A DNA stretch of 64,000 bases. Origin: Motilibacter rhizosphaerae. GTDB lineage: Bacteria; Actinomycetota; Actinomycetes; Motilibacterales; Motilibacteraceae. The translations under genes were made by a program, and so were the position numbers. Below, piece after piece: positions 36,338-62,083 of the stretch. Under the pieces are notes generated by a model. The model was given only the letters and a program-made list of their open reading frames with translations. It was not told where the DNA came from and ran no database searches. Each line of letters starts with the position of its first letter. Within the stretch, counting starts at the first letter, position 1. The stretch lies in contig NZ_SGXD01000004.1 of NCBI RefSeq assembly GCF_004216915.1, positions 62,001 through 126,000 on the forward strand, written 5' to 3'.

Positions 36338-36370
36338 CCCCAGTTGATCGGGGTCCCCGATCAACTGGGG
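36338..36370 (-). terminator. 16-bp perfect inverted repeat after the ABC ATPase gene
   Basis: CCCCAGTTGATCGGGG (36338-36353) and CCCCGATCAACTGGGG (36355-36370) are separated by one base, 18 bp beyond the ABC gene's stop. It can act as a terminator. Its core AGTTGATCGGG is also found at 10.2 kb and in the element at 52.9-53.2 kb. Confidence 0.75.
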
Positions 36371-36387: not shown

Positions 36388-37170
<783 letters not shown>

Positions 37171-52136: not shown

Positions 52137-52898
52137 GTGGATCTCGGTCTGGCGGGGCGCGTCTACGTCGTCACCGGCGGCAGCCGGGGCCTCGGCTACG
52201 CCACGGCGCGCGCCCTCGTCGCCGAGGGGGCGCAGGTCGCGCTGTGCAGCCGCGACGAGACCACGCTGCGCGCGGCGGCCGACACCCTCGGCGGGCCCGA
52301 CCACGCCCTCGCCGTCGCCGGCGACATCGCCGAGCCCGGCACGCCGACCCGGCTGGTGGCGGCGGCAGCCGCGCGCTACGGCCACGTCGACGGCGCCCTC
52401 ATCAGCGTGGGCGGCCCGGAGCCCGGCGCGGCCCTGGCGCTGAGCGACGAGCAGTGGCGTGCGGGCTTCGAGAGCGTGTTCCTCGGCCCGCTGCACGTGG
52501 TGCGCGCCCTGGCGACGGAGATCACGCCGGGCGGCTCGATCGCGCTCGTGCTGTCCACGTCAGTCCGCTCGCCGATCGAGGGGCTCGCGATCTCCAACGC
52601 GCTGCGCCCGGCCCTCGCGATGACGACGAAGAGCCTGGCCGACGAGCTCGGCCCGCGCAGCATCCGGGTCAACGGCCTGCTGCCGGGGCGCATCGACACC
52701 GACCGGCTCCGCGAGCTCGAGGTCGCCGGCGGGCGCCCGGTGACCAGCCGGCGCGAGTGGGAGCGCCAGGTCCCGCTGGGCCGCTACGGCGACCCGCTGG
52801 AGTTCGGCAAGGTCGCCGCCTTCGTCCTCTCCCCCGCCTCGTCGTACGTGACCGGCGCGATGATCCCCGTCGACGGCGGGCTCAGCCGCTCGTTCTGA
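52137..52898 (+). CDS. SDR-family oxidoreductase without YxxxK
   Basis: 253 residues. TGGSRGLGYATARAL and SVGGPEPGAAL match the SDR fold, and the end TGAMIPVDGGLSRSF is typical. The catalytic YxxxK is replaced by SNALR, though the Ser of STSVRSP remains; a group of SDRs carries this SNxxR form. GTG 52137 lies 6 nt after GAGGAT, a weak -10-like sequence. Its stop is 11 bp before the repeat element. Confidence 0.82.
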   Translation: MDLGLAGRVYVVTGGSRGLGYATARALVAEGAQVALCSRDETTLRAAADTLGGPDHALAVAGDIAEPGTPTRLVAAAAARYGHVDGALISVGGPEPGAALALSDEQWRAGFESVFLGPLHVVRALATEITPGGSIALVLSTSVRSPIEGLAISNALRPALAMTTKSLADELGPRSIRVNGLLPGRIDTDRLRELEVAGGRPVTSRREWERQVPLGRYGDPLEFGKVAAFVLSPASSYVTGAMIPVDGGLSRSF

Positions 52899-52909
52899 GC
52901 GGCCTCCTC

Positions 52910-53236
52910 GCCCGGGCTGCCGGGGAAGTTGATCAGGTTGCCCCTCGAGTTCGGGCTCCGGCAGCACGGAGTTGCGCTCAGCAGCACCAGGTGGTCGCCG
53001 TGCGGGCGGGATCTCGTGCTGCCGGGCACCACTTCGTACGGCCGAGCCGCGCCGTGCCGTCGCCCGTGCCCGGGCACTGCCGGAGCTGCCCGCCGGCACG
53101 GTCCGGCTGCCCGCGCACGGCCGACCGCACCAGGTGGTCGCCTTGAGGACGAGATCCCGTGCTGCTGGGCACCACTCCGTACGGTCGGGCGAGAAGCTGA
53201 TCAGGCGACCTGATCAACTTCCCAGGCGGCCCGGGC
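52910..53236. repeat. 327-bp intergenic element with 33-bp terminal inverted repeats
   Basis: The whole 345-bp gap between two convergent genes (52899-53243) holds no gene. Ends 52910-52942 and 53204-53236 are inverted repeats matching at 30 of 33 positions; both contain AGTTGATCAGG. Inside, two direct repeats of 64 bp (52984-53047 and 53127-53190) match at 55 of 64 positions. A further AGCTGATCAGG at 53195-53205 pairs with the right end. No target-site duplication or coding capacity seen. It could be a MITE-like element, a composite terminator or a structured RNA. Confidence 0.75.
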
Positions 53237-53243
53237 GCCGCCG

Positions 53244-55106
53244 TCAGGCCGGCGCGAACTGCGTGGCGTGCAGCTCGGCGTAGAGCCCGCCGAGGGCGAG
53301 GAGCTCGTCGTGCGTACCGCGCTCGACGATGCGGCCGCCCTCGACCACGAGGATCTGGTCGGCGCCGCGGACGGTCGAGAGGCGGTGGGCGACGACGATG
53401 CTCGTCCGCCCGGCGAGCGCGGTGTCGAAGGCGCGCTGCACGGCCGCCTCGGACTCGGAGTCGAGGTGCGCGGTCGCTTCGTCGAGCACGACGACGCGCG
53501 GGGCCTTGAGCAGCAGCCGGGCGATGGCCAAGCGCTGCTTCTCGCCGCCGGAGAGCCGGTAGCCGCGGTCGCCGACCACGGTGTCGAGCCCGTCGGGCAG
53601 GCTGTCGACGAGGTCGGCGATCTGCGCGGCGCGCAGCGCCTCGTGCAGCTGCTCGTCCGTGGCCCCGGGCGCGGCGTAGCGCAGGTTGGCGCGGATCGTG
53701 TCGTGGAACATGTGCGCGTCCTGGGTGACGACGCCGAGCGCCGCGCGCAGCGAGGCCTGGGTGAGGTCGCGGACGTCGTGGCCGCCGACGCGCACCGCGC
53801 CTGACGTCGCGTCGTAGAGCCGGCCGACGAGCGCCGTGATGGTGGTCTTGCCCGCGCCGGAGGGACCCACGAGGGCCACCAGCTGGCCGGGCTCGACGGT
53901 GAAGGACACGTCGCTGAGCACCTGGGCCGACGGGCTCGCGTCGAGGGTCGCCACGGACTCGAGGGAGGCCAGCGAGACCTCGTCCGCCCTCGGGTAGCGG
54001 AAGGAGACCCCGTCCAGCTCGACGCTCGCCGGCGCGTCGGCCGGCAGGTCGAGCGCGCCCGGGCGGTCGGCGACCATCGGCGCGAGGTCGAGGACCTCGA
54101 AGACGCGGTCGAAGCTCACCAGCGCGGTCATGACGTCGACGTGGACGTTCGACAGCGCGGTGAGCGGGCCGTACAGCCGCAGCAGCAGCGCGGAGAGCGC
54201 CACCAGCGTGCCGATGCCGAGCCGGCCGTCGATGACGAGGATGCCGCCGATGCCGTAGACCACCGCGGTCGCGAGCGAGGCGATGACGGTCAGTGCCGTG
54301 AAGAAGACGCGGGAGTACATCGCCGACACCACGCCGATGTCGCGGACCCGCGCGGCCTTCGCGTCGAACTCCGCCGTCTCCTGGTCCGCGCGGCCGAAGA
54401 TCTTGACGAGCAGCGCGCCCGAGACGTTGAAGCGCTCCGTCATCGTCTGGCTCATCGCGGCGTTGAGGGTCATCGACTCGCGCGTGATCGTCTGCAGCTT
54501 GCCGCCGACCCACTTCGCGGGCAGCACGAACAGCGGCAGCACGAGCAGGGAGACGAGGGTGATCTGCCACGACAGCCAGAGCATCGTCGCGAGCACGAGC
54601 AGCAGCGTCACCGCGTTGCTTACCACCGACGACAGCGTCGAGGTGAACGCCTGCTGCGCCCCGATGACGTCGCTGTTGAGCCGGCTGACGAGCGAGCCGG
54701 TCTGGGTGCGGGTGAAGAAGGCGACCGGCATGCGCTGCACGTGGTCGAAGACCCGGCTGCGCAGGTCGTAGATCAGCCCCTCGCCGATGCGTGCGGAGTA
54801 CCACCGCTGCGCGAGCCCCACGACGGCGTCGACGAGCGCCAGGGCCGCGACGGCGCTCGCGCCCCACACGACCACCGAGCGGTCGTGGTGCCCGACGCCG
54901 TCGTCCAGGACGGTCTTGAGCAGCAGCGGCGTGCCCACCGTGATCGCTGCGTCGGCGACCACGAGCACGAGGAACAGCACGAGCTCACGGCGGTACGGCC
55001 GCCCGAACTCGGCTATCCGCCGGAGGCTCTCCCGCGAGACGCGGCGCCCGCTGACGGTGTCCGCCCGCGTGTAGGACCGCAGCGCCATCCACTGCTGGTG
55101 CGACAT
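53244..55106 (-). CDS. ABC exporter, fused membrane and ATPase domains
   Basis: 620 residues. Six-helix membrane domain (about 35-330), then ATPase with Walker A LVGPSGAGKTT, signature LSGGEKQRLAIARLL, Walker B VVVLDEATAHLD and AHRLSTVR. Half-transporter of the MsbA/MdlB/LmrA type; works as homodimer or with a partner (none adjacent). Export of lipids, drugs or peptides is the usual role. GGGAGG about 4-9 nt before ATG 55106. Confidence 0.92.
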   Translation of the reverse strand: MSHQQWMALRSYTRADTVSGRRVSRESLRRIAEFGRPYRRELVLFLVLVVADAAITVGTPLLLKTVLDDGVGHHDRSVVVWGASAVAALALVDAVVGLAQRWYSARIGEGLIYDLRSRVFDHVQRMPVAFFTRTQTGSLVSRLNSDVIGAQQAFTSTLSSVVSNAVTLLLVLATMLWLSWQITLVSLLVLPLFVLPAKWVGGKLQTITRESMTLNAAMSQTMTERFNVSGALLVKIFGRADQETAEFDAKAARVRDIGVVSAMYSRVFFTALTVIASLATAVVYGIGGILVIDGRLGIGTLVALSALLLRLYGPLTALSNVHVDVMTALVSFDRVFEVLDLAPMVADRPGALDLPADAPASVELDGVSFRYPRADEVSLASLESVATLDASPSAQVLSDVSFTVEPGQLVALVGPSGAGKTTITALVGRLYDATSGAVRVGGHDVRDLTQASLRAALGVVTQDAHMFHDTIRANLRYAAPGATDEQLHEALRAAQIADLVDSLPDGLDTVVGDRGYRLSGGEKQRLAIARLLLKAPRVVVLDEATAHLDSESEAAVQRAFDTALAGRTSIVVAHRLSTVRGADQILVVEGGRIVERGTHDELLALGGLYAELHATQFAPA

Positions 55107-61711: not shown

Positions 61712-62083
61712 ATGTCCATCTACGACGAGCTGCAGCAGGACAAGGGCATCGCTGCCGCAGTGGACGAGTTCTACCGGCGCGTCACGCTGGACCCGCAGCT
61801 GGCGGGGTACTTCCAGGGCGTCGACATGGGGCGCCTGCGCGCCCACCAGGCCAAGCTCATCTCCCAGGTGACCGGGGGCCCGGTGACCTACGACGGGCGC
61901 AGCCTCGCCGAGGCCCACGCGGGCCTGCACATCAGCGACGCCGACTTCGACCGGGTCGTCGAGCACCTCGCGGGCACCCTCACCGACATGGGGGTCGCGG
62001 ACTCCACGATCGCCCAGATCGCGGCCGTGCTGGGAGCGCACCGGGGCGACGTGGTCGGCGACCCGGCCGGGCTCCCGGGCTGA
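61712..62083 (+). CDS. Group I truncated haemoglobin
   Basis: 123 residues, the size of GlbN-type globins. FYRRVTLDPQLAGYFQGVDMGRLRAHQAKL and LAEAHAGLHISDADFDRVVEHL show the two-over-two fold; the proximal His is in EAHAGL. (Both quoted runs are split here: helix B-E starts FYRRVTLDP, helix F starts LAEAH.) Binds O2/NO; truncated globins detoxify NO or handle oxygen. Followed 29 bp later by the flavohaemoprotein. Confidence 0.9.
   Translation: MSIYDELQQDKGIAAAVDEFYRRVTLDPQLAGYFQGVDMGRLRAHQAKLISQVTGGPVTYDGRSLAEAHAGLHISDADFDRVVEHLAGTLTDMGVADSTIAQIAAVLGAHRGDVVGDPAGLPG

Follow-up and report, generated by a model that had tools for sequence, protein, structure and literature searches.

Hairpin-ended palindromic repeats dispersed through the genome of Motilibacter rhizosphaerae

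The 345-bp gap between two convergent genes in the analysed window (64,000 nucleotides; positions 62001–126000 of contig C4 of the 4.3-Mb M. rhizosphaerae genome, G000, in 15 contigs) probably holds a REPIN-like palindromic element in compound form, one copy of a dispersed, non-coding family moved in trans and tolerated at gene ends. Each unit of this element is one long palindrome whose inverted ends carry a GATC-N9-GATC hairpin, and it measures 113 bp in the main family and 86 bp in others. The families are species-specific within a single genus, lie between genes with a preference for convergent pairs, and are missing from some of the orthologous sites in the sister species.

The window copy and its repeat unit

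An earlier note, made from the letters of this stretch, had described inverted ends with a shared motif, two direct repeats and convergent flanking genes. All of these were recovered: the arms (52909–52942 and 53204–53237) are 34 nt long and 91% complementary, the direct repeats (52984–53047 and 53127–53190) are 64 nt long and 86% identical, AGTTGATCAGG is found within both ends, a third instance being AGCTGATCAGG close to the right end, and the neighbouring genes, encoding a short-chain dehydrogenase (SDR) and an ABC transporter, do converge (Table 1). Other copies do not share the outer ~16 bp of the arms as originally drawn (P = 0.21 for a match of the flanks). The combination of inverted ends and direct repeats arises because the copy contains two units that face outward and, since their cores are themselves palindromic, the 64-bp repeats read as direct and inverted at once; the 297-bp compound was most likely formed by two units joined in inverted orientation. 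Mechanical open reading frames span the gap, though no frame has coding statistics. The stop codons of the SDR and ABC transporter genes lie 26 bp from the left and 22 bp from the right edge of the element, respectively.

Table 1 Features of the window copy, its neighbours and a second-family hairpin (window positions)
Feature	Position	Strand	Remarks
Compound repeat element, TIR to TIR	52925..53221	.	297 bp; made of two outward-facing family-1 units; ends GAAGTTGATCAGG / CCTGATCAACTTC; covariance-model matches on both strands
Left terminal GATC end	52925..52943	-	GAAGTTGATCAGGTTGCCC; inner hairpin partner degenerate
Left unit core palindrome, degenerate	52978..53058	.	Includes first 64-bp repeat
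Right unit, complete	53121..53222	+	Core palindrome (model columns 1-68) and terminal hairpin
Right terminal hairpin GATC-N9-GATC	53199..53217	+	GATCAGGCGACCTGATCAA; signature recurs genome-wide
Left flank gene, short-chain dehydrogenase (SDR)	52137..52898	+	Pfam PF13561, E 2.3e-43
Right flank gene, ABC transporter	53244..55106	-	PF00664, E 3.3e-46; PF00005, E 1.6e-32
Second-family solo terminal hairpin	36338..36370	.	CCCCAGTTGATCGGGGTCCCCGATCAACTGGGG; weak match to model R1

A BLAST search of the whole genome with the 327-bp stretch, the check that the note itself had proposed, returned 45 matches at many places and thus revealed a dispersed family. A covariance model (R1), built from 15 aligned copies, located ~37 places, nearly all of them intergenic, and a pattern for the end hairpin gave 95 strand-matches, as against 0 for its reversed control. 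The note had named chance repeats in a GC-rich spacer as the reading for a single copy that lacked relatives and covariation; copies and relatives exist, and chance is ruled out by the copy number together with the zero-match controls.

The 15 copies align over 102 columns at equal length and without gaps. Columns 1–68 make up a single imperfect palindrome centred on 34.5, and columns 79–95 hold the GATC-N9-GATC hairpin, which is nearly invariant. Extended to both ends, the basic family-1 unit is a nested palindrome of 113 bp with such a hairpin at its ends; intact two-ended copies have exactly this length in five cases, and longer compounds of 166, 297, 310 and 349 bp also occur, the window copy being the 297-bp one. 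Invariant positions are symmetric about the axis, with four similar half-sites at 20-bp steps, and copies diverge from one another by 10–30%. Within the window, the complete right unit scored 108.8 bits against R1 (E 1.6e-26) and aligned gapless with 14 other copies, while the left unit scored 56.6 bits on the plus strand (52978–53058) and 44.8 bits on the minus strand (52924–53045).

Several further observations were made at the loci that bear these elements. The solo hairpin at 36338–36370 lies just past the stop of the ABC-ATPase-like gene at 36388–37170 (minus strand), and another family-1 unit (L130, C1:1119160–1119261) separates an SRP (4.5S) RNA-like gene, recognised by eye, from a dnaX-like gene. 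At the right end of contig C7 (L004), long C and G runs beside a repeat copy are probably an assembly artefact. Another intergenic repeat, the third, has the core GTGATCATGCA, followed by about GTTCTTGGGG; the 264 kb of element loci from G000 contain it 32 times, including four in succession in L128 (3275–3440) as well as copies in L123, L124, L129, L134–L136 and L139; none was found in the window or in 101 kb of the sister genome.

Families in the sister species and placement between genes

The nearest genome, that of a sister species of the same genus (G001), essentially lacks family-1 sequence: R1 gave one weak match (C9:435 kb). This genome has its own family of the same design and a different sequence, present at ~17 places, with two-ended units of exactly 86 bp. 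The lone weak match coincides with a member of that family, which suggests that the main families of the two species are distant relatives. Second families, again of exactly 86 bp, were found in both genomes. There are thus at least four sequence families across the two genomes, three of them with an identical hairpin-to-hairpin spacing of 63 bp, the value seen in the 86-bp families, as opposed to 84 bp in the 113-bp family; these distances correspond to 6.0 and 8.0 helical turns, a coincidence drawn from few independent cases and not one to lean on.

The architecture is essentially restricted to this one genus. The end-hairpin pattern produced 95 strand-matches in G000 (reversed control, 0) and 57 matches in G001, compared with 0 in three more genomes from the same taxonomic family, and the two-ended pattern produced 11 and 31 strand-matches, respectively, with single matches in three of the 391 other genomes of the class (393 surveyed).

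Elements rarely fall inside called genes (6 of 221 positions overall: 3 of 128 for G000, 3 of 93 for G001), and they favour convergent gene ends. In G000, 17 of 47 element-bearing gaps lie between convergent genes, whereas the other gene pairs converge in 37 of 225 cases (P = 0.003); in G001 the figures are 11 of 17 and 16 of 100 (P = 7e-5). These P values are approximate, because the background was drawn from the same loci that had been chosen for bearing elements and the genes were called with a simple codon-usage script. The same preference has been reported in a survey of REP sequences (PMC3733652).

As RNA, the stretch 52910–53236 is predicted to fold at –228 kcal/mol on the plus strand (z –11.6), the minus strand being almost as stable, and single units behave alike (z –12.8 for L138 and –11.9 for L222). 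The idea that the feature is a structured RNA, one of three layouts the note had offered, is borne out as far as this very strong hairpin on both strands goes; covariation, another of its suggested checks, is absent within families, as complementarity within copies of two families was no higher than with shuffled partners, which gives no sign of selection on RNA pairing. What is retained across four families of unlike sequence is the palindrome, and it is from this, rather than from covariation, that we infer that palindromy matters for the element. A structured regulatory RNA could explain why both strands fold so stably, but with no covariation in the two families, no family matched in an Rfam search and copies that lie between many unrelated genes, we consider it very improbable.

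Mobility, mover and rival explanations

Comparison of syntenic sites, as the note had advised, showed two that are empty in G001: a 230-bp repeat-bearing gap of G000 corresponds to a gap of 3 bp (L125/L213), and one of 370 bp to a gap of 21 bp (L126/L207). At C3:520 kb, moreover, a repeat-bearing module with a DUF222 gene is absent from G001, where the neighbouring genes are 53 bp apart. Each empty site can be read as gain in G000 or as loss in G001, and the two cannot be separated; movement is favoured by the presence of different families at different sites in the two species. Mobility is thus well supported, and the identity of the family and its dispersal are established, although the family may no longer move, given that its copies differ by 10–30%.

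Additional explanations for the placement of copies were tried and set aside. Insertion into pre-existing terminator palindromes, to be seen as matching outer flanks, was not significant, the flanks being no more alike than shuffled ones (P = 0.21), and a phage or plasmid origin found no match. The idea that a composite element had carried in an AbiEi-like gene (C5:163.0–164.3 kb) was rejected, as G001 has the orthologue in the matching position, between repeats of the other family. The gene evolves fast and matches AbiEi_4 weakly (L153 3217–4179; L205 2670–3566); it is 47% identical between the sister species and is flanked by inverted repeat units in both, the repeat family differing by species.

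The reading of the stretch as a non-autonomous mobile element is supported by its dispersal, fixed-length units, common termini, empty syntenic sites and species-specific families; the stricter notion of a classical MITE with terminal inverted repeats and target duplication is not, since no duplication was found, nor any autonomous partner in the 36 repeat regions, which were examined as individual stretches of the genome. Consistent with the note's own remark that target duplication was lacking, none was detected at the 11 two-ended copies examined, apart from one 4-bp match. Derivation from an insertion sequence with a DDE transposase would fit the inverted repeats, the fixed length, the dispersal and the lack of coding capacity, but is improbable in view of the missing duplication, of hairpin ends on a wholly palindromic unit, which would be unusual for the end of an insertion sequence, and of the comparison of 36 repeat regions, in which no transposase gene recurred beside the copies. 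A search for the RAYT domain (Y1_Tnp, PF01797) gave 0 matches in G000 with E. coli positive as a control, and we therefore dismissed a RAYT-driven REP for this genome.

The sole kind of gene recurring beside the repeat in those 36 regions encodes a DUF222-HNH protein. G000 has 27 DUF222 genes in three subgroups (loci L068–L094; ~79–94% identity within subgroups). One subgroup shares a homologous block of ~1.6 kb (79–87% identity) with unrelated flanks, which in most copies runs from the outer edge of the repeat on the left to the stop codon. In two subgroups homology tends to stop at or very near the stop codon, and both ends of the 9.6-kb contig C11 fall inside two further DUF222-HNH copies (L157, L158). 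Together with the module's absence at C3:520 kb in G001, these data would allow the repeat to be the left end of a mobile, REP13E12-like DUF222-HNH module, with solo copies as derivatives or targets moved by the HNH protein. We regard this as rather unlikely: the right edge of the module lacks a repeat end, the end hairpin is missing from the two other G000 subgroups, and it is likewise missing from the DUF222 loci inspected in other genomes, among them G001, which has repeats of its own and 12 DUF222 matches. An amplified module could merely carry the repeat along, and the hairpin-free subgroups and genomes indicate that the link may be one of hitch-hiking. A variant in which a DUF222-HNH endonuclease drives a REPIN-like system in place of a tyrosine transposase, recognising GATC-N9-GATC hairpins at whole helical turns and copying both its own module and solo palindromes, likewise seems improbable to us.

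Were the elements not mobile DNA but functional insulators or two-way terminators, shaped by selection and kept uniform by gene conversion, this would explain the convergent bias, stop codons often only 10–40 bp away, the extreme hairpin stability and the single 23-bp hairpins that stand alone between convergent genes (e.g., L379). We hold it to be unlikely, as many copies are found upstream of a gene or between genes in tandem, G001 manages with hardly any spacer at two sites, and a terminator needs neither a fixed 63- or 84-bp spacing nor common ends. The third layout proposed in the note, an array of protein sites, is possible as far as the symmetric conserved positions, the four half-sites at 20-bp steps and the whole number of helical turns between hairpins are concerned; yet for a chromosome-organising protein or a regulator the sequences differ strongly between families and species and no such protein is known, making a binding-site array quite improbable.

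Under the preferred reading of a REPIN-like palindromic element, the element would spread non-autonomously as a hairpin. An enzyme supplied in trans, presumably other than a Y1/RAYT transposase, would recognise the terminal hairpins in single-stranded or cruciform shape. Copies would persist at the 3′ ends of genes because they do little harm there. The long hairpin, formable on either RNA strand, makes the window copy a candidate two-way terminator or stabiliser of transcript ends for the convergent SDR and ABC transporter genes.

Comparison with known systems

REP-like elements are understood mainly through the RAYT transposases of Proteobacteria. Here, one genus of Actinomycetes has several unlike families built on one design of terminal GATC hairpins at constant spacing, with no RAYT in G000. 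Either the work of RAYT falls to another enzyme, or the families persist after losing their mover. The question can be tested directly, because two related genomes offer different families and empty sites. The DUF222-HNH proteins, a large actinobacterial family of unknown role, offer one concrete candidate for the mover; if this proved true, a function would be found for the large DUF222/13E12 family.

To our knowledge, ERIC sequences have no known mover, as is the case for the G000 element. Going by the description of ERIC and the enterobacterial 127-bp RU-1 in PMC2759123, these sequences resemble the G000 family in being of similar length, intergenic and MITE-like; set against that description, the G000 family is limited to a single genus of actinobacteria and bears terminal GATC hairpins. 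With the REP13E12 or DUF222-HNH repeats of M. tuberculosis (PMC13061034, PMC10589994) it shares multicopy DUF222-HNH genes, some with a repeat at their left edge, whereas the solo repeat is non-coding, the window copy included, and the association is absent from G001. GTAG- and CGTC-tagged REPs (PMC3733652) are similarly palindromic, intergenic and close to the stop codons of convergent genes, but neither tag is conserved at the ends of the G000 element, GAAGTTGATC and GATCAACTTC; the phyla named in that survey for these tags do not include Actinobacteria.

The closest parallel is provided by REPINs, doublets of REP sequences that form hairpins, in Pseudomonas fluorescens SBW25 (PMC3116915). 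Both kinds of element have two inverted palindromic ends at fixed spacing, can pair along their full length, may adopt hairpin and clover folds, and are short, non-coding and intergenic, with several families and lone single ends. The G000 element differs in the lack of a RAYT/Y1 transposase in its genome, in ends made of GATC-N9-GATC hairpins, in a centre that is itself a long palindrome and in units of 86–113 bp. Because the GTAG tag and RAYT are both missing, it is not a strict member of the REPINs; with its inverted palindromic hairpin ends at fixed unit length and its dispersed, intergenic, multi-copy occurrence, it is an element that works like one.
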